Part shown: positions 17,260-52,800 of the stretch, in pieces
Position numbering within the stretch: position 1 is the stretch's first letter
Layout: the number at the start of each line of letters is the position of its first letter
NCBI RefSeq assembly: GCF_024713945.1
Contig: NC_134682.1
Coordinates: 310,001-374,000, forward strand
Reading direction: 5' to 3'
Source of the DNA: Dermatophagoides farinae
Lineage: Eukaryota > Arthropoda > Arachnida > Sarcoptiformes > Pyroglyphidae
Length of the DNA stretch: 64,000 nt
Notes under the pieces: generated by a model
Database searches by the model: none
What the model was told of the DNA's origin: nothing
Seen by the model: only the letters and a program-made list of their open reading frames with translations
Program-made: the position numbers and the translations under genes

Positions 17260-17832
17260 TTAGCCAACTAATCCGATCGGATCAAAACCACCGATATCTC
17301 CAAGTCCGCCGAGACCACCAATATCACCAAGACCGCCACCCCCACCCCCACCTCCGCCTAGATTTCCTAAGCCAAGATCACCGAGACCAAGTCCATCGCC
17401 TCCACCGCCGCCTAGATTTCCTAAGCCAAGATTACCGAGCCCAAGATTTCCAAGATCAAAACCACCACCACCACCTTGTTGACCAAGACCTAATCCTTGA
17501 CCCAATCCTTGGCCGAATCCACCTTGTTGACCAAGACCACCCAATTGTTGGAGAACATTGCCGCCGCCGCCACCACCACGACCACCATCGAGACCAAATC
17601 CAAGGCCACCGGGACCACCACCTTGAAAACCGCCGCCACTAGGTCCACCACCACCAAGGATATTTCCAAGGCCACCTAATCCTGCTGGTCCGCCACCACC
17701 ACCACCGCCACCTCCACCACCAAAGCCATCACCAAGATTTCCAAAATCAAATTCATTTTGAGCATAAATGTTGATGATATTCAATGCAAACACAAACAAT
17801 AAACACAATAGTAAACCACATAGATTTGGCAT
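17260..17832 (-). CDS. Secreted glycine-rich repeat protein
   Basis: 190 residues. The start at 17832 gives a textbook signal peptide: MPNLCGLLLCLLFVFALNII, ending near IYAQ. An upstream in-frame ATG at about 17919 would bury it, so I prefer the downstream one. The rest is low-complexity: poly-Gly runs, GGxGGLG units and LGNLGLGNLG repeats, with FD/DFGNLG at both ends of the first block. No cysteines in the mature part. Such proteins occur among arthropod cuticle, silk and antimicrobial glycine-rich proteins; the sequence does not choose between them. Local GC is far higher than in the neighbours because of Gly and Pro-complement codons. Repeat length is likely to vary between individuals. 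Confidence 0.68.
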   Translation of the reverse strand: MPNLCGLLLCLLFVFALNIINIYAQNEFDFGNLGDGFGGGGGGGGGGGPAGLGGLGNILGGGGPSGGGFQGGGPGGLGFGLDGGRGGGGGGNVLQQLGGLGQQGGFGQGLGQGLGLGQQGGGGGFDLGNLGLGNLGLGNLGGGGGDGLGLGDLGLGNLGGGGGGGGGLGDIGGLGGLGDIGGFDPIGLVG

Positions 17833-18769
17833 GATGATGGTGGATTGTGAATATGAGTTTTTCAAAAAAAAATGTGATGAATGAACCTGAATACACAATA
17901 TTTTCACAATGAAAAACAATCACTTCACGTCACACACACACACACAACACACACACACACACACTGACTAAATGTTGATCGATGTTCGAAGTTTGATGTA
18001 TTTTGTTTTTTTTTTCTGTATTTGTGTCTGTGTGTGTGTGTGTTGGATGATTCCAAATTGAAAGCTCAAAATCAAATGACAATCTTTCGATTTGAAACTG
18101 CTAGATTTAAATGTAGTGAAAACATAATGAAAACAGAAAAAATTTATTATCATCGGTGAAATTGAGGAAAAAAAATATTAAAAATTTCGAAGACAATGGC
18201 TTGGTGTTTGTGTGTGTGTGTGTGTGTGTAATCCGTTTCTCTTTTCAATACGACAAAAAAAAATTTAGAAATACAAAATAAACTAAAAACAAATGCAACT
18301 CGACCTCTACCTGATTTCCGGTGGTTCAAAAACAGAAATTTTAAGAAGAAAAAATTTTAAAAAAAGGCTGCTACAATTGTAATGACAACAACAATCGCTT
18401 TCGCCATCATTTTAATTCATTTCTCTCTCTCTCTCTTTTCTTCCGAATCATTTTTTTTTTTTGATTTCGATTCGGTCGAGAAAATTTTACTGATCATTAC
18501 ATACATTTGATTAGATCCGGGAGTTGCTTAATTCAACAAACAAAAAAAAATTATTTTTTTCACACACACAACTGATAATTTAAATTTCAAATCAATTAAA
18601 TTTAAAATAATTATGATGAATAAACCGGTGGATTGAAAAAAAATGATTAATCAAAATCAAATCTCATCATCATCATCATCATCAAGATCAGGAAATCACA
18701 ATCGATTCAATTGTGAAGTTGAAACAAATAAACTGAATGGGTGACACTTGGTATTGATGAAAGTTTTCA

Positions 18770-19869: not shown

Positions 19870-22800
19870 ATGAGCCAATCAATATTATCCAACAACAACA
19901 ACAACAGCAGCAATAATAATAATCAACCAAATGCTGTCTTTACCATAACTGAAATGCCCGATTTGGAACAAGTATATTCTCTAATCAAAGCAATGTATGA
20001 ACAAGAAGAATGTAAAGAATGGGCATCTAAATGGCTAGAAGCGCTGCAAAGATCCGTGTTTGCATGGAAAATATCTGATCAATTATTGATTAAAAAAATT
20101 GATTATCAATCATGTTATTTTGCTGCACAAACATTGAAAACGAAAATATTACAATCATATACTGAATTACCAGTGGAAAGTTATGATTCATTAAAAGATT
20201 CGCTTATCAATCATTTGATCAATATGAATGTGAAGCCAATTGAAACACAACTTTGTCTCTCTTTGACGTATATTTGTAAGTTGAAAGTTTTTTTTGTAAA
20301 ATAAATTGCTATGATAATTTTAATTTTCATATCGTTATATTATAGTTTATATAAATGAAAATTGGAAACATGCATTCGAAGAGCTTTCACAAAAATTAAC
20401 AAAAGGTACATTTATTGAAATTCTCACATGTATCGCTCAAGAATATGATGAAAGTCGGCCAATATTTAAGCTGCCCAGAGCACGACGTGATCAACTTGAA
20501 CAGTATATGTCAAATAATTTTTCAATGGTCATTCAATTGTTAATTTCCTGTTTTCAAGAGTTACGTACATGTAATGATACTGCTGTACAGGAATTTATCA
20601 GTCAAAAATGTTTATCTTGTTTTGAATCCTGGGTAAATTTTGCCAAAAATGATCACGTGGATTTGGTTCGTCAGATGTTGACGATAATTTTTGAATTTCT
20701 AAAAAATCCTGATTGTTCCATAGAAACACATGAGAAAGCATCGGATGCTTTCTGCAAAGTGATTTATCAATGTGAAGCACATAGTAATTTTTCCGATCTA
20801 CGTGTTCAAGTCATTGAAATGGTTTATGCATTGGAAACGAGCTATGATAATGCATTGGCTGTAGAAGATTCTTCAAAGTTGATGGATTTGGCAAGAATTT
20901 TTGTTGAATTGGGCAATTCAATCATTGAATTTTTGATTTATGATCAAATTGATTTGAAAATCATGCAACTGATTCTTAAATGTGTTGGACATTATGAATT
21001 TGAAGTGGTGGAAATTACATTCAGTTTTTGGTATAATTTTTCCGAAATTCTTCGTAAACATGATTATGCAAAATTTGCTCCATACTATAATCATCTGTTC
21101 ACATCTTTATCACGTCTTTGTCGTTTAGAAGTTGATTCAGAAATTATTGTTGATGAAAAATCTGATGTCTACGATTATCGATCACAAATTCATGAATTAA
21201 TACAAGAAATCGCCATTTGCATTGATTGGGTCAATTATACCATCTCGATGAATGTTATGGAAAATTTCAATTCGACAACAACTTCATGGGAAATTATTGA
21301 AGCCCATCTATACATCATGTATTGTATCGCCTATACGGATAATATTGATAATGACAATAATCCACTTAAAAATGATGTTTTATCTGCAATGATTAATTAT
21401 CTATTGAATTTACCGAATCAATCTGTCGCAGAACAACAACAACCACAACAACAAGTACCACATGTACAGATTTATGCTACTGGTTGTGATCTAATTGCTG
21501 AATTAAATGAATGGATCAATGACAATACAAATTTCTTACATCCAGTTATAATATTTTTATTGAATATTATTACCACGAACCATGTGAAGCTAACAAAATT
21601 ATCAATTAGAGCTGCCATTGCTTTGAAACAAGTCTTGAGTACTATGACCAATATTGTTGATTATGATTGGATCTCCAAATTATTTAATGATCTAATACAA
21701 ATCTATAAACTAATTGAAGATCGTGTTGAATTGGGCGTACCGATTATGGCCTGCTGTACAGCCATATTGTCTAATGAAAATATTGAAAAATGTGAACAAC
21801 AAGAAACATTTTTTCAACTATTGTTACAAAATTGTCTGGACAAAATTCAAGTTGTATTGAATCAAAAATTATCGATAGAAGAACATAAATTAAAATGGGA
21901 AAAAGTCATTGATAATATTTATGCTGCATTCAAAAATTTTCGTCCCAATGACAAGACGAAAACATCGACTGTGATACATGCGCACATTAGTGAGAATATA
22001 TGGCCATTTTTAAAACAATCTATTGTACATTTTGCACCAATCGATACTCAAGTGATTGAACATTGTTCACGTTGTGTTCGTCATATTGTACGTTCGATGA
22101 AACCATCTTATCTTTTGCAACCGATCGTTGATCATATTGTTCCATTGTATCAAAATTTTCCAAGCAATTCCTCTCTTTTATATATTGGTGCTGTTCTGGT
22201 CGATGAATTTGCCGATCCAAATAATCTGATTTTAGCCGATGGCTTAATTCGAATGCTAAATGTAAGGTGGTTTTTTTTGATAAATCGTATTTTTCATTAC
22301 TTTGTTTTCTTTTTTCAATGGCTTGCAGGCATTTTCAATGACCACATTCCATATTCTAAATGAAAACACATTCAATCTTAATCCTTACATGATTGACGAT
22401 TATTTCAATTTATGTACACGTACAATGACCAATCTACCGGAAAAATTTTTGACAAATGTTGAAACATTAAACGGGATTGTCAATTTGGCTATCATGTGTC
22501 TTTATTTGCCACAAAAAGAAGCAAGTGAATCGATAAATAAATTCCTGATTGAATTTTTCAAGTTGAAACATCCAGTGGTCACCACACAATATGCGGCTAC
22601 CGATTTTGGTCGAAATATATTTTTTTCATTGATAGATTCAATAATGTTTAAATTGCCTAGCTATTTCATAGCGGATATGGTGGACACAATATGGACATTT
22701 AAATGCAACTACGCTCAGGTGAGATTTCTGGACAAATGAACACATGAAAAATGAAAATAATGTTTTGTTTGATTTTTAATACTAAACAGTTGTATGATCA

Positions 22801-23549: not shown

Positions 23550-24923
23550 ATGATTGGTATTAGTGGCAGCATGAAGACTTTTTCCGCAAAGAATATCATC
23601 ATTGGTGATGTTATAAACGAATGTTTCAAGTGTATAAAATATTATCTGTTTCGTTTGGAATATTCCTTACTGGATTATCAACAGCGTCGTATACGATGGA
23701 CTTGTTATCGAACAATCGAACCAAGTATTTGGATAACGACAAATTCAATGATTTTAATCGCCATAATGTTTACTGCGATTCGACGACCAAAATCCATAGC
23801 TGGTTTGCCGTTATCATTTGAAGATTTTGAAGAAATGTTTGATATTCAACGATTAGATATTGCAATCGTACATTTACTTGTTGTTTTTTTGACGTTAGAG
23901 TATCTATGGTTTGAATTGTTCAAAAAAATTTCTTCTTACAATTTTCCGCTGAATGATTTGTTCATCAAATATCGTAATTATGATGACAATCTATTGGAAC
24001 CACGTTTACTTCGTTATTTGACTTTATTTTATCGAATTATTCATTCAATATCGACATTATTTTATCGCTTAACGGCATTGACAATGTTATCTGGTTACGC
24101 ATTATTCATTATTCATGTTGGCTATTTATATTTGGATGGTAAATTGAATACATTCCAATGGCTTTTGTTTCTTCAACTGTGGACAATGTTTCTGGTTCGT
24201 TTAGTATATCTGATGGGACAATTATTTTTGGCAATGAAATTTTTATTGTTTATCGTTGAATTTGGCCGAATTCAATTCATGAAAATGCTTCAAACAACCA
24301 AAATTGTGTTTTGTTGTAATCGAAACAAAATGAATTTCAACAATTCAATAAATCGCAGATTGTTTTGGCAAAGTTTCCATCGACAATATTTGACACTGTA
24401 TTTGGACATATGGAAATTTGATGATACAATAAAAATGATAATGGCAACAGTGGAAATGAATGCAAAATCAGCAATTATTGTTGGCACATTATTCGTTAAT
24501 AGCCAATTGAGTATAAATCTTAATAATACCTTGATCATCCTATACCTAGGATCAGCGTTTTTATATCCTAAAATAATCTATTCACACGTGTCATCTTTAC
24601 CATCTTATAATCGAACTTGTAGCCGATTAATTATGAATTGGAATGCACGAACACATTGGCAACGATTCTGTACACAACAACAACTGCAACGATTACTACA
24701 AGAATCGTCATCATCGTCATGGAAAAAACTGAAACGTTTCAATGCATGGATCACATTGAGAGATGGAATTAAATCCAATCTATTCATACAGACAATGACC
24801 AATAATCATTTTGGATTGAACTGTGGACAAATATTCTTCATCACTAGATATAAATATCTAGAATTACTTCTAATGGATGTTATGCTAATTTTATTGTTTT
24901 ATAAAAAAATTTGCTTAACTTAA
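23550..24923 (+). CDS. Multi-pass membrane protein, divergent gustatory-receptor-like, copy 1
   Basis: 457 residues in one exon. About seven hydrophobic segments: roughly 60-80, 103-122, 170-195, 203-222, 225-240, 305-335 and 437-453. There is no N-terminal signal peptide. The C-terminal FGLNCGQIFFITR stretch before the last helix resembles the last-TM signature region of arthropod gustatory receptors (G..F.ITR), but the usual TYxxxxxQF is not visible. So a chemoreceptor role is an inference. Hand alignment with the downstream copy shows about 53 differences in 457 residues (about 88% identity) and no gaps. Differences cluster at about 305-385, the probable external loop and TM6. It starts 506 bases after TNPO3. 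Confidence 0.75.
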   Translation: MIGISGSMKTFSAKNIIIGDVINECFKCIKYYLFRLEYSLLDYQQRRIRWTCYRTIEPSIWITTNSMILIAIMFTAIRRPKSIAGLPLSFEDFEEMFDIQRLDIAIVHLLVVFLTLEYLWFELFKKISSYNFPLNDLFIKYRNYDDNLLEPRLLRYLTLFYRIIHSISTLFYRLTALTMLSGYALFIIHVGYLYLDGKLNTFQWLLFLQLWTMFLVRLVYLMGQLFLAMKFLLFIVEFGRIQFMKMLQTTKIVFCCNRNKMNFNNSINRRLFWQSFHRQYLTLYLDIWKFDDTIKMIMATVEMNAKSAIIVGTLFVNSQLSINLNNTLIILYLGSAFLYPKIIYSHVSSLPSYNRTCSRLIMNWNARTHWQRFCTQQQLQRLLQESSSSSWKKLKRFNAWITLRDGIKSNLFIQTMTNNHFGLNCGQIFFITRYKYLELLLMDVMLILLFYKKICLT

Positions 24924-25699: not shown

Positions 25700-27073
25700 A
25701 TGATTGGTATTAGTGGCAGCATGAAGAATTTTTCAACAGAGAATATCATCATTGGTGATGTTATAAACGAGTTTTTCAAATGTGTAAAATATTATCTGTT
25801 TCGTTTGGAATATTCCTTACTGGATTATCAACAGCGTCGTATACGATGGACATGTTATCGAACAATCAAGCCAAGTATTTGGATAACGACAAATTCAATG
25901 ATTTTAATAGCCATAATGTTTACCATGATTCAACGACCAAAATCCATAGCCGGTTTGCCGTTGTCGTTAGAAGATTTCGAAGAGATGTTTGATATTCAAC
26001 GATTAGATCTGGCAATCATACATTTAGTTGTTGTTTTTTTGACATTAGAATATCTATGGTTTGAATTGTTCAAAAAAATTTCTTCTTACAATTTTCCATC
26101 GAATGATTTGTTCATCAAATATCGTAATTATGATGACAATCTATTGGAACCACGATTACGTCGCTATTTGACTTTATTTTATCGAATTATTGATTCAATA
26201 TCGACATTACTTTATCGTTTAGCGGTATTGACCATGTTATCTGGCTACGCATTATTCATTATTCATGTTGGCTATTTATATTTGGATGGTAAATTGAATA
26301 CATTCCAATGGCTTTTGTTTCTTCAACTGTGGACAATGCTTCTGTTTCGTTTAGTATATCTGATGGGACAATTATTTTTGGCCATGAAATTTTTATTGTT
26401 TATCGTTGAATTTGGCCGAATTCAATTTATAAAAATGCTTCAAACAACCCAAAATGTGTTTTGTTGTAATCGAAACAAAATGAATTTTAACAATTCAATA
26501 AATCGCAGATTGTTTTGGCAAAGTTTCCATCGACAATATTTGACACTGTATTTGGAAACATGGAAATTTGATGATACAATAAAAATGGTGCTGGCAGCAG
26601 TGGAAATGATTGCAAAATCAGCAATTATCGATTGCACTGTATTCGTTAGTAAACAATTGCGTATGAATCTTAATAATACCTTGATCATCCTATGGTTAGG
26701 ATCAGCATTTGTATATATGAAAATTATTTATACACACGTGTCATATGCACCATCTTATAATAAAAAATGTAGCCGATTAATTATGAATTGGAATGCACGA
26801 ACACATTGGCAACGATTCTGCATTCAACAACAACAGAAACCATTACTGCAAGAATCGTCATCATCACCATGGAAAAAATTGAAACGTTTCAATGCATGGA
26901 TCACATTAAGGGATGTGATTAAATCCAATCTATTCATACAGACAATGACCAATAATCTTTTTGGTTTGAATTGTGGACAATTATTCTTCATCACTAGATA
27001 TAAATATCTAGAATTACTTCTAATGGATGTTATGCTAATTTTATTGTTTTATAAAAAAATTTGCTTATATTAA
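25700..27073 (+). CDS. Multi-pass membrane protein, divergent gustatory-receptor-like, copy 2
   Basis: 457 residues, gap-free paralogue of the gene at 23550 and the same topology. Some regions are identical for long runs, for example LMGQLFLAMKFLLFIVEFGR and SYNFP..NDLFIKYRNYDDN. Others differ at nearly every second residue (about 305-385). The open frame is kept with mostly conservative changes, so both copies are probably functional. The upstream 30 bases differ: copy 2 has an insertion between GTTATAGAATG and the ATG. The stop is about 100 bases from the end of the minus-strand cysteine-rich gene, so the two converge. Confidence 0.75.
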   Translation: MIGISGSMKNFSTENIIIGDVINEFFKCVKYYLFRLEYSLLDYQQRRIRWTCYRTIKPSIWITTNSMILIAIMFTMIQRPKSIAGLPLSLEDFEEMFDIQRLDLAIIHLVVVFLTLEYLWFELFKKISSYNFPSNDLFIKYRNYDDNLLEPRLRRYLTLFYRIIDSISTLLYRLAVLTMLSGYALFIIHVGYLYLDGKLNTFQWLLFLQLWTMLLFRLVYLMGQLFLAMKFLLFIVEFGRIQFIKMLQTTQNVFCCNRNKMNFNNSINRRLFWQSFHRQYLTLYLETWKFDDTIKMVLAAVEMIAKSAIIDCTVFVSKQLRMNLNNTLIILWLGSAFVYMKIIYTHVSYAPSYNKKCSRLIMNWNARTHWQRFCIQQQQKPLLQESSSSPWKKLKRFNAWITLRDVIKSNLFIQTMTNNLFGLNCGQLFFITRYKYLELLLMDVMLILLFYKKICLY

Positions 27074-27171: not shown

Positions 27172-28245
27172 CTATGATACAGCTCTTTGAAGAAAACTTC
27201 TTGTTGGTTTGCTTGAAGCTTTACTAAATTTATGTCCATAATTTGAATTTTGTTTTGATGCTGATGATACACTACCACTGCTACCACCACCACCACCACC
27301 ACGATTCGATGATAATGATGTCGATGGTTTATTCGAGGAACCACGATTATAGTTTGTTGATGATGATGAGGATGCTGATGATGATTTGCCATGACCAACC
27401 CCCCCACCACCGGAACAAACACGTACAGATGAATTTTTTGAATTTCGACTTGCCTGTTGTGATGCTGCTGCTGATGATGCTGCTGCTGAGGATGATGATG
27501 ATGATGATGGTTGTTGTGATGATGCTCCCGTATACATTACATGACTTGTTACATTTGGACGTGGTGCTAATGCCATTCGTAGATGTGTTGGTTGTGATCC
27601 ACCACCATGTTTTTTTACTTTATTGTATGCTTTGAATTTTTTATAGGCAATCATACAAATCAATACCAGTATTGAAAAAGCAACCGCTGCACCCAATACG
27701 ATCAATACGAGTAGTAACCATCGATTCACATTTGGCAGTGCCATACATTTTTCATATGTGATTCCTAAATCCTGACAATCAAGTGTCATATGACATTGGT
27801 GAGTGTCCAAAAATTTACAAAATTTTCCACCTTTATAGTTCATATCATTTTCACAATGGCGTTTAAAACATACACACATTAATTCCTGACTACAACATTT
27901 CAGAATATCGGCACGACCTTCTTTAACGCCAATAATACTATCACGTTCCTCGAAACATGTTACATTTAACAATGGATAAACAAACTTGTCCGGATTCGGA
28001 TTTTGATATATCAATCGAGAATAAGTTGGAAAAATTGTTTGATTTGTCATATTATGACCATTTTGGATTGTTGTCATACTATCATTCTTGACATTTGTGA
28101 TATTCAATATCGATGATGATGATGGTGATGAACGATTTTGATTTTGATCAATATTAATATCGGCAGCTTTGATCAGAACAACAATCGATGGTAAAAGTTG
28201 TAAAAAAAACATTGTAAACTTCATCATGATCATCCTGGACATCAT
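27172..28245 (-). CDS. Type I membrane protein with 10-Cys ectodomain, paralogue A
   Basis: 357 residues, one exon. A signal peptide covers about residues 1-27 (several Met starts; the hydrophobic LQLLPSIVVLIKA is shared with B). The ectodomain is Asn/Ser-rich with N-glycosylation sequons. Cysteines sit at 97, 117, 118, 124, 126, 131, 143, 151, 157 and 167 (C-x19-CC-x5-C-x-C-x4-C-x11-C-x7-C-x5-C-x9-C). A transmembrane helix spans about 176-200, followed by basic YKKFKAYNKVKKHGG. The cytosolic tail is Ser/Ala/Gly-rich and ends in the conserved KFSK...SFLQRAV. Two more paralogues follow upstream on the same strand. I do not recognise the family: the spacing does not clearly match GDNF-receptor, activin-receptor or EGF domains. 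Confidence 0.82.
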   Translation of the reverse strand: MMSRMIMMKFTMFFLQLLPSIVVLIKAADINIDQNQNRSSPSSSSILNITNVKNDSMTTIQNGHNMTNQTIFPTYSRLIYQNPNPDKFVYPLLNVTCFEERDSIIGVKEGRADILKCCSQELMCVCFKRHCENDMNYKGGKFCKFLDTHQCHMTLDCQDLGITYEKCMALPNVNRWLLLVLIVLGAAVAFSILVLICMIAYKKFKAYNKVKKHGGGSQPTHLRMALAPRPNVTSHVMYTGASSQQPSSSSSSSAAASSAAASQQASRNSKNSSVRVCSGGGGVGHGKSSSASSSSSTNYNRGSSNKPSTSLSSNRGGGGGGSSGSVSSASKQNSNYGHKFSKASSKPTRSFLQRAVS

Positions 28246-28411
28246 AATTCACATTCGAACGAAAACTTTTTATTTCATTAATTCGAAAAAAAATTGCAAT
28301 TTTTATAACCATCAAAAATCATTGTTTCAAACGTTGTTTTCTTTTTGAGATTTCATTCAATTTATATTTTATTGAATTTTGAAATTGAATTTTTTAAATT
28401 CATTCAAAATC

Positions 28412-28428
28412 CCGACAGATGTCAGCAT
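28412..28428 (-). promoter_or_regulatory. CCGACAGATGTCAGCAT element upstream of paralogue A
   Basis: 17-bp block 167 bases before the start of the gene at 28245. The identical 17-mer occurs before paralogues B (29636) and C (30707). Flanking bases (AAAAT before, ATCAACAATAGATTTTTT after) are also shared with C. Confidence 0.6.
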
Positions 28429-28529
28429 TGGGATCAACAATAGATTTTTTTTTTTTTTGAAAATCAAAATTTGATCAAAATACTCTTTCAAAGATTGTTG
28501 ATTACTAATTTTTTATTGTTTGTTTTTTT

Positions 28530-29480
28530 TCATAATACAGCTCTTTGAAGAGAACTTTTGATTGCATCTTTGCTAAATTTTTGCCCATTATTAGGTTGTT
28601 GAGATGATTTTGATGATACAAAATCCGATGTCGATGGTTTACTCACTGATGAACAAGTTGATGGTTTGCTCGATGATGATGATGATGATGATGATGACTT
28701 GCCAGCACCACCAGAACATTCACGTGCATTAGATGAATTTTTTCGACTTTTTCGATTTGATTTTCGTGTTTGATTGACCTGCGATGGTTGCTGTATGGAA
28801 GACACATACATCACTTGACTTGTGACATTCGGACTTGATGCAATTGCCATTTCTAGTTGTGGTTGTGATGTGGTACCACCACCATGTTTTTTCGCTTTAT
28901 TATATGCTTTGTATTTTTTATAGGCAATTATACAAATCAATATTAGAATGGAAAAAGCAATTAGCGAACCAAATACAATCAATATAATAAGCAACAATCG
29001 ATTCACTTCTGGCAGAGCCATACATTTCTTGTAGCTGACGTCCAAATTCACACAATAAGGTCTCGGCTGACATGGATGTGATCGTGTGAATTTACAAAAG
29101 GCTCCATCAATATAAATCGGATCATGTTGACAATGACGATTGATACATTCACATGATAATACTTGTAAACAACAGTCTAGAATATCGGCACGAGCTTGTT
29201 TAATGTACAGAATATCACTGCTTTCATCTCTACACGTCTCATTTATCATTGGATGTTTCCGAAGATTTTGATATTGTGATCGCAATCGATTTGGCGTATT
29301 ATTAATGTGACCATTTTGGATCTCTGTTGACATTGTAGTGTATTCATTTGTCATATTTGACAGTGATGAATGATTTTGATCAATATTGACATCGTCAGCA
29401 GTAGCAGCAGCTTTGATCAGTACAACGATTGGTGGCAAAAGTTGTAATAAAAACTTTATCATGATCATCACGAAAATCAT
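28530..29480 (-). CDS. Type I membrane protein with 10-Cys ectodomain, paralogue B
   Basis: 316 residues, one exon. Signal peptide about 1-25 (FLLQLLPPIVVLIKAA). Ten cysteines at 83, 103, 104, 110, 112, 117, 129, 137, 143 and 153 with exactly the same spacing as paralogue A. TM helix about 162-187, then YKKYKAYNKAKKHGG, nearly identical to A. The cytosolic tail is Ser-rich and ends KFSKDAIKSSLQRAVL. The strong match just inside the membrane and at the extreme C-terminus, against a variable ectodomain and middle tail, suggests the intracellular part contacts a conserved partner. Confidence 0.82.
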   Translation of the reverse strand: MIFVMIMIKFLLQLLPPIVVLIKAAATADDVNIDQNHSSLSNMTNEYTTMSTEIQNGHINNTPNRLRSQYQNLRKHPMINETCRDESSDILYIKQARADILDCCLQVLSCECINRHCQHDPIYIDGAFCKFTRSHPCQPRPYCVNLDVSYKKCMALPEVNRLLLIILIVFGSLIAFSILILICIIAYKKYKAYNKAKKHGGGTTSQPQLEMAIASSPNVTSQVMYVSSIQQPSQVNQTRKSNRKSRKNSSNARECSGGAGKSSSSSSSSSSKPSTCSSVSKPSTSDFVSSKSSQQPNNGQKFSKDAIKSSLQRAVL

Positions 29481-29635
29481 AATTCACATTCAATCGAGAA
29501 TTTTTTTTTTGTTATAGATTTTATTCGAATAAATTTTCAATTTTTATAATTATCGAAAATTATTGTTTCGAGCTTGTTTTTTATTTTGGATTTAATAAAA
29601 TTTTTAAATTTCTTTAACGGAATTCATTTAAAATG

Positions 29636-29652
29636 CCGACAGATGTCAGCAT
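29636..29652 (-). promoter_or_regulatory. CCGACAGATGTCAGCAT element upstream of paralogue B
   Basis: Identical 17-mer 156 bases before the start of the gene at 29480. Flanks are less conserved than in A and C, which makes the core stand out. Confidence 0.6.
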
Positions 29653-29762
29653 CAGAGATTGACATTGAATTTGAATTGATTGAAATTTTATTCTTTCAAT
29701 TGATATGCGTTAATTGCCAAGTTTATTGTTTTTTTTTATCTAAAAAAAAATTTACAATTTAT

Positions 29763-30584
29763 TTATTTTTGAAGAGAACTTTTTGCCGGTTTGATTGAAT
29801 TTTTACTAAATTTTTTTCCATTGTTAGGTTGTTTTTTAGATGATTTTGATGATACACCACTTGACGATGACTGGCCACCACCAGCACCGCCACCACCAGA
29901 ATTTTTCTGCTTTGAACTTTGACTTTTATCGGTCTGTGATGGTTGTTGCTGTACGGAAGACACATATTGACTACTATCGACATTTGAACTTGATGTATTT
30001 GCCGCTTTTTTATGTTGTGGTGGTGGTGGTTGTGATTCATCTTGTTTTTTCAGTTGAATATATTTTTTATAGCCAAATATACCAATCACTATTAGAATTA
30101 AAAAAACGACAATCACACCAAACACAATCAGCATGGTATGCAATAATCGATTATTACTTTCTGGTAGAGCCACACATTTTTCGTGGATAATTTTCATAGG
30201 CAAATGATAACAGTTAGGTTTCGTGTGACATGGATGATTTGGCAACTCCATACAATACTTGCCATTCTTATAGATTGGATCAAATTGACAATGACTTTCA
30301 ATACATAGACATGTTAATAATTGAACACAACATTCTAGAATATCGGCATGAGCTTGTTTATTCGAAAGAGTTTTACTACTTTCCTCTCTACACATCACAT
30401 TTACCAATGGATGTTTCATTTGATCTTGAAATTGCGATTTCGTTCGATTTGGCGCCATAATCGTTTGCGTCGTTGGCGTCATAATCAGAATAACGATTGG
30501 TGGTAAAAATTGTAACAACGATAATGAAAAAAACATAAACTTCGTGATGATGATCATCCTGAAAATCATAAAATTCACATTCAA
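29763..30584 (-). CDS. Type I membrane protein with 10-Cys ectodomain, paralogue C
   Basis: 273 residues, one exon, the most diverged member. Hydrophobic signal about 17-36 (LQFLPPIVILIM). Cysteines at 65, 85, 86, 92, 94, 99, 111, 119, 125 and 137; the last spacer is 11 instead of 9 residues. TM about 148-171. The juxtamembrane KKHGG of A and B is replaced by YIQLKKQDE and Pro-rich sequence, but the end KFSKNSIKPAKSSLQK is kept. Start at M1 (30584) is likely, but M6 or M10 are possible. Confidence 0.8.
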   Translation of the reverse strand: MNVNFMIFRMIIITKFMFFSLSLLQFLPPIVILIMTPTTQTIMAPNRTKSQFQDQMKHPLVNVMCREESSKTLSNKQAHADILECCVQLLTCLCIESHCQFDPIYKNGKYCMELPNHPCHTKPNCYHLPMKIIHEKCVALPESNNRLLHTMLIVFGVIVVFLILIVIGIFGYKKYIQLKKQDESQPPPPQHKKAANTSSSNVDSSQYVSSVQQQPSQTDKSQSSKQKNSGGGGAGGGQSSSSGVSSKSSKKQPNNGKKFSKNSIKPAKSSLQK

Positions 30585-32040
30585 TGGTGAATTTTTTTCA
30601 GATTTTATTCGAAATTTTTATAATTATCAAAAATCATTGTTTTGAACGTTTTTTAACATATATTCAATTTAATTAAAAAATTTTCATCACAAAATTCGTA
30701 CAAAATCCGACAGATGTCAGCATTAGATCAACAATAGATTTTTTTTTCTTTTTAAAAATTGATGATCGATCGTAGATCGATTATTACATTTTCAACAAAC
30801 TGAATCACGAAAAAAAAACGAAAAAGTTGAAAAAATTTGTTTTCCCATTGTTCTCGAATTTGTTTAATTGATTGATTTATTTTTTTGCCCTTGAAAAATT
30901 CCCTGATTTTCAGTTTCGATGCAGTATCGATGTATCGGATTTACAGACGTACACACGCACATGCAGTCAAAATGAAAAGTAGAATTTCGTTCAAACGATG
31001 AAAAGAAATAAAGCAAAAGCAAAGAAAAAAAGGATTGTTTGTATCAACACAAATATAGCTTTAGAAATCAAGTGAAAAGAAAAAGAATTCTAAAAATTAT
31101 CCGATGTAGGCGTGTTGTTTGTAGAATCTATTTGAAAAGAATGCAAAAAAAGCAGAACGCTATTAAATTCCACATAGATATGAATCTTAAGGATGCCATT
31201 TAGTAGGTGGTTGATGTTGTTGTTGATGTATTATTTCCATGATTACCATCATCATCCATCGAATGCTGTTTTTTTGATGATGATGATGATGGTGATCGTT
31301 GCAAATCGAAAAATTGCCAAATAGTTATTGCCTTGGATTTTTTGTTGTTTGTTTCGTATGCATGTGCAACAATTATATATTCATCGAATTATCATCTAAT
31401 AATAATGATGATGATGATCATCATCATCATAATGGTAAACACCACCATCGTCGTCGACATATTATAGTAATGCAATAGTTTTATCGCTTTCGGGTGTGTT
31501 TTTTTTTGTAATTGTTTGGGGGAGGTAAAGATGAACTTTATTTTGAAATTTCAATTTTCAACGAAAAAAAAAATTCGTTTGATATGCGCATGTGTTGCAA
31601 GAACCAAAAAAAAAATGGTAGTGGATTCACACACACCGAAGAACACCTACCTTTATTTTATTTTTTTTTTTATTTGTTGAATCCATGCCAATGTATTGGA
31701 TCATGTTCAGTGCACAATACCACTACCACACAAGAAATAGAAAAACAATTTTCAACAACACCGTTTGGAGCGCAAACAATGCACGGTAATAGAATTCTTG
31801 CCATTCCAATCTTTTTTTGTTTATCCTCTTCCTCATTCAAAATATCAATTACACCAACATACAGAGGTAGCAGCATAGAATCGCAACGATATTTCTTTCA
31901 CATGCCCACACATGAATTTTTTCGATAATAGAAGCATATATTAATGGTATAACGGCATTCGATTCTCCACATTCTCACCCTCTCTTACTCTTTTTTTTGT
32001 CTCTGGTTTTATTTTGCTCATTCGCGCGCGCGGGTTTTTC
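30585..32040. other. Region upstream of paralogue C
   Basis: No convincing gene. It carries the third shared element (30707-30723), an ATCGATC-gta-GATCGAT hairpin near 30764-30781, and a perfect 26-bp (GAT/ATC) palindrome at 31405-31430. The small open frame at 31512 is poly-T-rich and not protein-like. Confidence 0.55.
30707..30723 (-). promoter_or_regulatory. CCGACAGATGTCAGCAT element upstream of paralogue C
   Basis: Identical 17-mer 123 bases before the start of the gene at 30584. It is followed, as in A, by a near-identical ATCAACAATAGA then poly-T. Confidence 0.6.
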
Positions 32041-48700: not shown

Positions 48701-49528
48701 GTTTGTTTGTTTCTAAATCTACGTTTATAAATGTAACAACATTTGCTCAGAAAACAAAACAACCTTGCTATATATATATAAATTGTGATGTATTATATAT
48801 GCAAAGGTGTTTTTTGTTTTCTTTTTTTTTCTCTGTGACTTTTTTTTCTGTTTCGTTGTTATTAATAATTTATTCTTTTCTTTTCTTTTGTTTACTCCTG
48901 ATATGTGAATAGATCACCGATAAGAATCATTGATAATTGGCCACCAACCAAAACAACAACGAGCAATAAAAATTTTTCCCGCTTTTTCATAATCAATCAA
49001 TTTTTATCGAATATTGGCAATTCAAGAATCCATTCCATACACACAAACACATGCACAGAATTTAATTCGTGTATTTATTTATGTTGTGATTTTTTTTTCG
49101 TTTTGTTTGTTTATTTATTTGTTTACGTCGAAAAAATTTAATTTAATTTTTTTTCATCAGTGTTTGTGTGTGTGTGTGTGTTGATTTTGTGGATGTGTAC
49201 CAGTGTACCATTGGGTTTTGTTTTTTGTTTTATTTTTGATTCGTTTTCGTCATCATTTTTTTTGTAACGACAACACATCAGATGATTTTGTTTACTTCAA
49301 TTCTATGAACGTTTTGAACGTCAAAATTTAATTCATTGAATGTTGTTGCCTGGCCAATAATAATTATAAATCATCATTCTTCATTCAATTCTCAATCGTT
49401 TCTCATCTCTTTGTCATTTACACGTTTTTTTTCCTGTGAACGTGTATATTTCGCTACACCAGCTATTCTTCTGATTGTTTTTTTCATTTTACGTTACAAA
49501 AATTTCATTCATCACGAAATCGACAATC

Positions 49529-49802
49529 ATGACAAGTGGAGCGCCAGCTTGGTCTGGAAGTTCCTTAAAGTCATATGCTGAATCTGAAGGCGGTGATTCA
49601 CATGATGATGATTCCAGTAAAGATGGTTCACTAAAAGGTAGCGGTTCCATTGATGGCCTAAATGGTGCCAATAATGGTGGCAATTCAGATGCCGAAGGTG
49701 TTTGGTCACCGGATATTGAACAAAGTTTTCAAGAAGCATTAGCAATCTATCCACCATGTGGCCGACGTAAAATTATACTTTCCGATGAAGGAAAGATGTA
49801 TG
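49529..49802 (+). CDS. sd: TEAD/Scalloped transcription factor, first coding exon (partial)
   Basis: DNA-binding partner of Yorkie/YAP at the end of the Hippo pathway and of Vestigial in appendage development. This exon gives 91 residues plus one base and ends at a GTAAGT donor after ATG TAT G. Residues 1-55 are Ser/Gly/Asp-rich, with AWSGSS near the start as in other TEADs. The TEA domain then begins: [20 protein letters not shown] followed by [18 protein letters not shown], identical or almost identical to human TEAD1 and fly Scalloped. The next part of the TEA domain (RNELIARY...) is not found in the remaining 14 kb, so the intron is longer than 14.2 kb. The start is the only in-frame ATG giving a TEAD-like N-terminus (caatcATGaca). 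Confidence 0.97.
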
Positions 49803-52800
49803 GTAAGTGTGTCTCTGTGTGTGTGTGTGTGTGTGTGGTTTATTTGTTTTGTACCATTTCATTTGATAACCTTGATCAATCATTATTATTATTAGTATCG
49901 ATGATGATGATGATGTCCAATCAATCAATCGATATACTAATAATAATGATTGAATGAAATCATTTCTTTATTTGAAGGTTAGCCATACAAAGTTGATTAG
50001 AAAGGCAGAATTTGTTTTTTTTTTTTTTTTTTGATATTTAAACATGAAATTATAGCATCATAATGGTCGCTTGTTTTTGTTGTTGTTGTCGTTGTCGTCA
50101 TTATTGATCAATTTCTATGATTGAATAGAAATCAAAATTTTCAATTCAAAATGAAAAACTTAAAAAGACCTGCTATTTTGAATGACAATGATAATCATTA
50201 TCATAATAAACGTTTCTATATATGCAAATCGATAATTGGTTTTTATTTTTTATTTGTGCAAGTCATGGCCCATATTTGTTTTTATCCCTTTTTTTGTAAT
50301 AAGGATCGATTATTCTTCCATTGTTTTATGGGCTGGTAATTTTTTTTGTTATATTCAATCAATTTTGATTATCATTTTCGTTAGAAAATGGAAATTATAC
50401 ATTTTCCAATCCATTGTTTTTTTTATGTTTGCTATAGCGTGTTGAAATTTTGTAAATTTCAATTCAAAATATCGTAATCTTTTAATATATTCGTTCAAGA
50501 ATCAGAATTTAGAACATTGAAAAGTAATATTTATTGGACAATTTGAAGAAGAATAATTGTCCCGTAATAATAATAATTTCTTATAAGATGTATTTGTATT
50601 TTGTATTTTCGATACAAATGTAACATGTATTTGTGTCCATGTACAATCATTTGTGTGTGTCTGTGTGTTGGTGGACAAAACATGACATTTCCATTATTAT
50701 GATTATTGTTGTTGTTTTTTCATGTCAACATCATCGCCAACTATATACATATATTGAATTAAGCTTAACACGACAAATTCCTTTTGTTGTTGTTTTTTTT
50801 TCTCTTTTTTTAGCAAAAAACTGATACAAACCAGGGCCCGGGGATTTTTTTGATGACCAGGTTTTTTTCAGTGGATAATGGTATTTAAAGAATTTTTGAA
50901 AAAGATGAAAATGAGATAGACAAATCGAGCAAATCGTTTTGGCTGTTTTTTCTCATTTTCAGCAACTACATTGATTTCATAATTGATTCATAAATTGAAC
51001 AAGCAATCATTGTTGTAACAATGTAATTAATTGGACAAAGAATCCACTCAATCGTTTGTTTTTTCTTGTTGCCAAAAAAAACGAAAAGTGAAGTTGAAAA
51101 GAAAGAATAATTGAACAAAGAATTTAGGAATTTCATAACAAAAATATACAACCAATCCAGATCCACCAGTATTTTAGCTTGGTGAATTTCGTTTCCACCG
51201 TCTATTTTTATTTGATTGTATCGATTCTTGATTCTCTTGTGTGTGTGAATGAATAATTTTTTTCCATTTATTACTTAATTAATTAATTAATCAATCTATC
51301 CAAAATTCTGATGTAAATTTCTCTCTCACTCACTCTCTCTGTGTGTCTTTTGTCATAATAATAATAAATTATAATAATTTGGTGTCTGGAGAGAGATATC
51401 TAATCCAAGAATTTAGCCAGTCTAGCCTACCAGAATATTCTTTGTGTTTTACAAAAGGAATTTGCCTTTCTTGATTCTGCAGTTGTTTTGGATCGATGAA
51501 TTTTTTCTTTTTTTCTTTCATCCATTCACCACACACATATTTATAAATAAACTGTATCGTCAATTCAAAAAAAAAAAAAATTCCAAACAAAACATTCCAA
51601 TGTCTGTGTTGGTTGTGTTGGTGGTGGTGATGGTGAAAATAACCTGTATGTGTTAAAATAGCTTTGATTCATGAGCTTTGAATTTTTTTATTTTGATTTT
51701 GTATATGGGGGATAGAAAGAGGATGTGTAAAAATCTATTCCAAATATTCTCCCATGGGGGATTTTTATTGTTGATGGTGGTGGTTTGTTAATGTGTAAAT
51801 AGGCAATGAAAAAAAAAATCAAGACATCTTTTCATGATGTAACTCGATCGTTATTCGGTCGGCCGCATCATTTCACTAATAATCATTGTGAATAATAATA
51901 ACGACCACGACGACAACAACAACAACAACAACAACGGCTAATAAGCTTTTTGATTAATGTACTTTTGATCAGACTAATTGTCTGTGTGTCAGAATGGCGG
52001 TGGTATATGGATTCATATGTTGAAGAACAAAAAAAAAATTAGTTAAAATCGTTTGATAGAATCGGGAAAAAAATTTTCGCCATCAATAAAGAAAAATTAT
52101 TCATTTATTCATTCATTTAGAAATCGACAACAAAAAAAATATGTTTAGCTTCTTTGAATGAACTTTTTTTTCGTGTGTGCATAATTTGAATAATGTAAAA
52201 TTCGTCATCAACAAGCGGCAACATTCATTCATTCATTCATTCATTCAATTTGAATTGTAATTTTGATTTTGATTTATATTTATTCATTCGTTCGTTCGTT
52301 CGTTCATTCAATTTATTCAATAAATTTTAATGAAAACAGAATATAATTTCATTTTGCATTTTCTTTTGAGATTGTTGACGAGCAAAAAAAAAAATATGAA
52401 ACGAAATTGACGTTAGAATGTGGATGTGAATAATAAATTGAATTAATTAAACCATTTCTTTTTCCACCGAACCGTTGTGTTCTCGATGATGATGATTCCA
52501 GATCAATAATTTCATGAAACTATGAAATCAAAAAAAAAAAATTATTCTGCGATTCTGATCTTACGTTCGTTTAGGACGTTTTTTTTTTTGTTTCGTTTCA
52601 TTTACAGTCAGTAATTGAGACTTTTTCAATGATGAAAACAACAAAATTCCATTATCTTTGTCTGTGTTGTTGATGAATGAACAAATTTACATATTCCATA
52701 TACAAATCTTTTTATTAGCTCGAACACAATCGCAAATTTGATTATTTATTTAAAAAACATTCGCAAATTTCTTTAATTTTCTTATTAAAGAAAATTATAT

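Follow-up and report, generated by a model that had tools for sequence, protein, structure and literature searches.

Three tandem genes of Dermatophagoides farinae belong to a fast-evolving family of cysteine-rich, probably cell-surface proteins

The window analysed here, a stretch of 64,000 nucleotides from Dermatophagoides farinae (assembly GCF_024713945.1, contig NC_134682.1, positions 310,001 to 374,000), carries three minus-strand genes in head-to-tail order, termed Wb, Wa and Wc, each of which consists of one single open reading frame (ORF). In the numbering of the window they lie as follows:

27172..28245 (-), Wb, single ORF, 357 aa
28530..29480 (-), Wa, single ORF, 316 aa
29763..30569 (-), Wc, single ORF, 268 aa

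The region for which a family of membrane proteins had originally been predicted extends to 30584 and includes 15 nt ahead of the Wc start codon. The proteins share a common build: from the N-terminus on, they have a hydrophobic segment, a variable region, the ten-cysteine domain, a single transmembrane (TM) segment and a tail that is basic and rich in Ser. This agrees with the original prediction, made with no strand given, of three single-exon genes with a signal peptide, one TM helix and a basic juxtamembrane segment, which the ORFs and a Kyte-Doolittle scan (best 19-residue window) match in all three cases; the type I membrane architecture proposed there is supported by the N-terminal hydrophobic segment together with the single, more hydrophobic internal TM segment. 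The predicted cysteine pattern was likewise recovered: the spacing C-x19-CC-x5-C-x-C-x4-C-x11-C-x7-C-x5-C is exact in all three proteins, and the gap before the last cysteine is x9 in Wa and Wb and x11 in Wc. The domains, delimited by cysteine spacing, and the TM windows, with their hydropathy, are:

27745..27957 (-), Wb ten-cysteine domain, C97-C167
29022..29234 (-), Wa ten-cysteine domain, C83-C153
30174..30392 (-), Wc ten-cysteine domain, C60-C132
27658..27714 (-), Wb TM window, residues 178-196, hydropathy 3.16
28935..28991 (-), Wa TM window, residues 164-182, hydropathy 3.16
30075..30131 (-), Wc TM window, residues 147-165, hydropathy 3.53

The similarity within the triplet is beyond chance: in a tblastn search of the same genome (62.4 Mb, 22 contigs), Wa retrieves Wb (E 2.1e-72), Wc (2.1e-49) and, on contig C8, a further gene (C8a, locus L013; 2.9e-18). 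Pairs of triplet proteins are 42–57% identical overall, 42–72% in the TM and juxtamembrane stretch, 47–53% in the cysteine domain, 32–55% in the middle of the tail and 60–76% at the C-terminus, so that the ectodomain and the mid-tail do both vary, as had been described. Large length differences are found in low-complexity Ser/Gly stretches.

The family is larger than the three genes first noted. With C8a, Wb and newly found members as queries, and by reading the fetched loci, we identified six further members, C6far (L028), C8b (L026), C8c (L030), C3a, C3b and C9 (L045), which brings the family to ten genes on four contigs, seven of them firm and three probable; this number is a lower bound, because the search scores only the best candidates and ignores introns. 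The first tblastn E values of C6far (0.22), C8b (0.27), C9 (0.30) and C3a (1.7) were too weak to prove membership alone, and these loci were chosen by eye for their cysteines and TM segment and tested afterwards. C8c was retrieved with the C8b query (E 2.8e-9), and C3b was found next to C3a on reading L046 (C3b versus C3a, E 5.0e-28). A consensus query of the genome revealed no additional gene and improved C6far to E 3.6e-8. The ORFs of two weak tblastn matches (L018 and L055), once read, do not fit the family, and L024, L027, L034-L039, L053, L056, L057 and L062 were excluded, with their ORFs unread, on score, internal stops or a match confined to the TM segment and tail. No relative emerged from one scan of viral contigs.

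All ten reading frames are open (177–357 codons), and the hydropathy scan finds a TM segment in 10/10 members and a hydrophobic N-terminus in 9/10. In the tails K+R exceeds D+E in every member, and S+T reaches at least 20% in nine. A cysteine frame around C(C)...C-x4-C, accompanied by one TM segment, recurs across the ten genes: CC-x5-C-x-C-x4-C is present in seven members and C-x-C-x7-C-x4-C in the other three. Ten cysteines in the same order are found in Wa, Wb, Wc, C8a and C8b, while C6far has 11, C8c nine, and C3a, C3b and C9 eight each. The latter three form a second, eight-cysteine clade (L046 on contig C3, with a tandem pair, and L045 on contig C9), in which C-x-C replaces CC and the fourth and ninth cysteines are both absent; their joint loss hints that these two may form a disulfide pair. 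The tails of C3a and C3b are short, basic and Ser-rich.

To evaluate whether the distant members are true relatives, we compared profiles with hhalign. The four core proteins (Wa, Wb, Wc and C8a) matched C8b+C8c with 97.0% (E 9.6e-11), C6far with 95.8% (E 6.5e-9) and C3a+C3b+C9 with 85.1% (E 6.2e-6), and a control against L047, a Cys-rich GDNF-domain protein of the same genome, gave 0.2%. When the cysteine columns were kept fixed and the remaining columns shuffled (20 shuffles per set), none of the shuffles reached the real score in any of the three comparisons (real scores 75.7, 65.0 and 44.8; best shuffles 29.0, 34.0 and 26.5, in the above order), hence the non-cysteine residues carry part of the relation. 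A tree of the ten members supports the C3/C9 clade (98) and C3a+C3b (89) well; C8b+C8c has 76, and with support of 21–45 at the deeper nodes the tree leaves the order of duplications unsettled. Of all parts of the family, membership is least secure for the C3/C9 clade.

The original prediction could assign the ectodomain to no known family, and this view survived the profile and structure searches, as Pfam, NCBIfam, PDB-sequence and Foldseek searches provided no credible match for the cysteine-rich head. An hmmscan of the ten full proteins returned 43 families at E <= 10. Two matches to Wc, PF04277 (E 4.4e-05, 24.5 bits versus a cut-off of 27) and NF042931 (E 2.4e-05, 24.4 versus a cut-off of 80), span the TM segment and tail and were taken as chance, as were PF08496 (E 0.00022) and PF08510 (0.00042), among the better matches in the 25 of 43 families listed, where neither carries a position or cut-off, and a functionless PHROG (E 0.0018) matched by one of seven ectodomains. 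For the Wb head, AlphaFold gave a helical model of moderate confidence (predicted local distance difference test score, pLDDT, 79.3).

We estimated the ratio of nonsynonymous to synonymous substitution rates (dN/dS; Nei-Gojobori, 95% bootstrap intervals) for the triplet pairs. For whole genes it is 0.66 (0.51–0.87) in Wb-Wa, 0.79 (0.56–1.08) in Wb-Wc and 0.75 (0.55–1.01) in Wa-Wc, so the interval excludes 1 in one of three pairs. For the cysteine domain minus its cysteines the values are 0.67 (0.32–1.24), 0.62 (0.27–1.24) and 0.93 (0.47–1.75), for the tail 0.83, 1.07 and 0.94, and for the C-terminus (16–19 codons) 0.91, 2.76 and 0.39; the TM and juxtamembrane stretch shows clear constraint in one of three pairs (Wb-Wa, 0.33, 0.13–0.77). 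Point estimates above 1 occur in single pairs, in the N-terminal stretch (1.26 and 1.22), the tail (1.07) and the C-terminus (2.76), all with intervals that include 1. Thus the proteins evolve fast, and no region has a dN/dS significantly above 1; the diversifying pressure originally proposed for this locus is not borne out.

The KFSK...SLQ motif predicted for the tail is present, as KFSK...S[SF]LQ, at the C-terminus of all three triplet proteins, and the end of C8a, KITRSFLVKALM, resembles KPTRSFLQRAVS of Wb. Alignment and motif comparison revealed a second tail motif (termed motif 1), a stretch ending in PNV[T/D]S that is common to Wa, Wb and C8a; its N, V and S do not vary among the four core members. 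The best 14-residue tail identity between C8a and Wb is 8, equalled in 2/200 shuffles, which is moderate support. The positions are:

27544..27582 (-), Wb tail motif 1, LRMALAPRPNVTS
28818..28856 (-), Wa tail motif 1, LEMAIASSPNVTS
29973..30011 (-), Wc counterpart of tail motif 1, NV-D-S alone retained
27175..27231 (-), Wb C-terminal motif, KFSK...SFLQRAVS
28533..28580 (-), Wa C-terminal motif, KFSK...SSLQRAVL
29766..29813 (-), Wc C-terminal motif, KFSK...SSLQK

The upstream regions of the triplet are 68–72% identical to one another. Their longest invariant run has 17 columns (ATGCTGACATCTGTCGG) and is equalled in 954 of 100,000 column shuffles. A motif scan with its 15-bp core located one copy before each gene, and each copy is followed by a TATA-like box:

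28412..28426 (-), 15-bp element GCTGACATCTGTCGG, 181 nt before the Wb ATG
29636..29650 (-), 15-bp element GCTGACATCTGTCGG, 170 nt before the Wa ATG
30707..30721 (-), 15-bp element GCTGACATCTGTCGG, 152 nt before the Wc ATG
28299..28307 (-), TATA-like box TATAAAAAT, 62 nt before the Wb ATG
29540..29548 (-), TATA-like box TATAAAAAT, 68 nt before the Wa ATG
30614..30622 (-), TATA-like box TATAAAAAT, 53 nt before the Wc ATG

With up to three mismatches allowed, the core has three matches in the window, all exact (as many in 3/100 shuffles); genome-wide, with up to one mismatch, it occurs three times, all at the triplet, and a reversed-sequence control searched in the same way gave zero matches. In C8a, ACTGACATCTGTGGA occupies the same strand at 205 nt upstream of the ATG (4819 (-) of L013) and is identical at 12 of 15 positions (1/100 shuffles), and the other six non-triplet members scanned have no convincing copy. 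Each of the four core members has a TATAAA box 53–68 nt upstream of its ATG; among the five further members examined for it, C8b and C9 have TATAAA within 200 nt of the ATG, and C8c, C3a and C3b do not. These similarities favour a common regulation of the core members.

Taken together, we propose that the family comprises fast-evolving cell-surface proteins that pass the membrane once and most likely serve as receptors or in adhesion, and we put the probability of this reading at about one half. The head of approximately 70 residues, probably compact and helical and held by up to five disulfides, would bind a ligand outside the cell or an adjacent surface; the membrane would be spanned by one helix, and the basic, Ser-rich, flexible tail would contact an intracellular partner, perhaps via the two short motifs. 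The genes of the window would be tandem duplicates that retained a common promoter element, and its retention after duplication suggests that the triplet is probably active in the same cells, where different heads may feed one intracellular route. A conserved intracellular partner had been part of the original prediction; the identity of the C-termini fits it, their dN/dS shows no consistent constraint, and the partner stays an inference. The lack of consistent constraint in the C-terminus is one of several findings that weigh against our proposal. In C6far the signal peptide is not clear and the gene is possibly spliced (its model is uncertain, with a possible short intron ahead of the domain, judged by eye), the C9 tail has just 11 residues, and AlphaFold did poorly in a second run, which was led by Wc (pLDDT 53.1). 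In addition, tail motif 1, with its moderate support, is little retained in Wc, and the C8a element was the single match when seven members outside the triplet were scanned, so chance may account for it. A bolder version, in which the approximately ten paralogues form a receptor family of the mite lineage with a new disulfide-held helical ectodomain, whose core shares a private promoter element, and serve as a recognition system (for a mate, a microbe or an environmental cue) built on an undescribed fold, is tentative and on balance unlikely.

Fast-evolving, single-ORF, Cys-rich membrane proteins could also be gamete or male reproductive surface proteins, expressed chiefly in the germ line and acting in fertilisation or sperm competition. 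The upstream element contains a TGACA half-site, and TGIF-type factors act in insect spermatogenesis; a silkworm study took CTGTCAA as the TGIF target (PMC3494694). The element of the triplet, however, reads CTGTCGG and equally holds a CATCTG E-box; binding by a TGIF-like or by an E-box factor would be candidate readings that serve as leads only. With no dN/dS significantly above 1 either, we regard a reproductive role as unlikely. A surface coat, mucin-like proteins or simply genes under low constraint, with no specific ligand, would account for the tail dN/dS near 1 and for the big length shifts in the Ser/Gly stretches, but all ten frames are open, the cysteines are retained, and over whole genes each of the three pairs stays under 1 in dN/dS, one of them significantly. 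The loss of similarity in the cysteine-fixed shuffles implies that other residues are conserved between distant members too, and we therefore find this explanation rather improbable.

Least of all do we expect co-receptors or antagonists of the TGF-beta/BMP or GDNF type that would act, by analogy with RGM, Twisted gastrulation or GFR-alpha, via a small disulfide-locked helical bundle. GFR-alpha is likewise a receptor with a Cys-rich domain and has a C-x-C-x4-C-x11-C stretch, but its profile (PF02351) matches none of the ten members: a genome-wide search found L047:1171-1929 (-) on contig C6 as the sole match (23.1 bits versus a cut-off of 22), where the spacing reads C-x-C-x5-C, and PF02351 is not among the families listed by hmmscan for the ten full proteins (best 25 of 43) and eight ectodomain cuts. 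Together with the hhalign value for L047, this led us to reject a GFR-alpha identity. RGMs are glycosylphosphatidylinositol-anchored. The RGM N-domain, a three-helix bundle, was matched weakly by Foldseek (E 8.6–9.6) and by hhalign with 0.4% against one RGMB sequence; its spacing, C-x4-C-x22-C-x8-C-x7-C-x21-C (RGMB, PDB 6z3m and 6z3j), differs from the C-x19-CC-x5-C-x-C-x4-C of the family, and RGMs carry an additional C-terminal domain (PMC7354924). The N-domain of TWSG1 (PDB 8bwl) is also a compact disulfide-locked helical bundle and has C-x5-C-x-C, but it holds 14 cysteines in about 50 residues and belongs to a two-domain secreted protein (PMC11167000); hhalign gave 0.3% against one TWSG1 sequence, and the number and spacing of cysteines differ. 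With negative hhalign results and weak structural matching, RGM and TWSG1 were rejected as well. In the portions of the literature available to us, searches on chelicerate Twisted gastrulation and on the letters of the upstream element returned nothing useful, and those on this family or on mite gene families found no description, which is weak evidence given their broad terms. The surface proteins of this arthropod group are poorly annotated; if confirmed, the family would provide it with an undescribed extracellular domain and a countable set of genes, and it already offers a concrete set for testing, in which ten genes are joined by two tail motifs and a cis element.

The triplet is adjoined by two tandem single-ORF genes, 23550-24923 and 25700-27073 (+), of 457 aa each and 89% identical (404/456), which are hydrophobic, multi-pass in look (by eye) and lack a Pfam match; they may resemble arthropod gustatory receptors. 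A protein that matches Der p 2 (E 1.6e-30), though not identical to it, agrees with a mite as the host. A Gly-rich ORF with an N-terminal hydrophobic stretch, tandem repeats and no Pfam match lies at 17260-17919 (-). Three other neighbours in the window are ordinary: a Ufd2/E4 ubiquitin factor core (433-2160, -), transportin-3/importin-13 (20324-22363, +) and an exon with a TEA domain (49475-49957, +).
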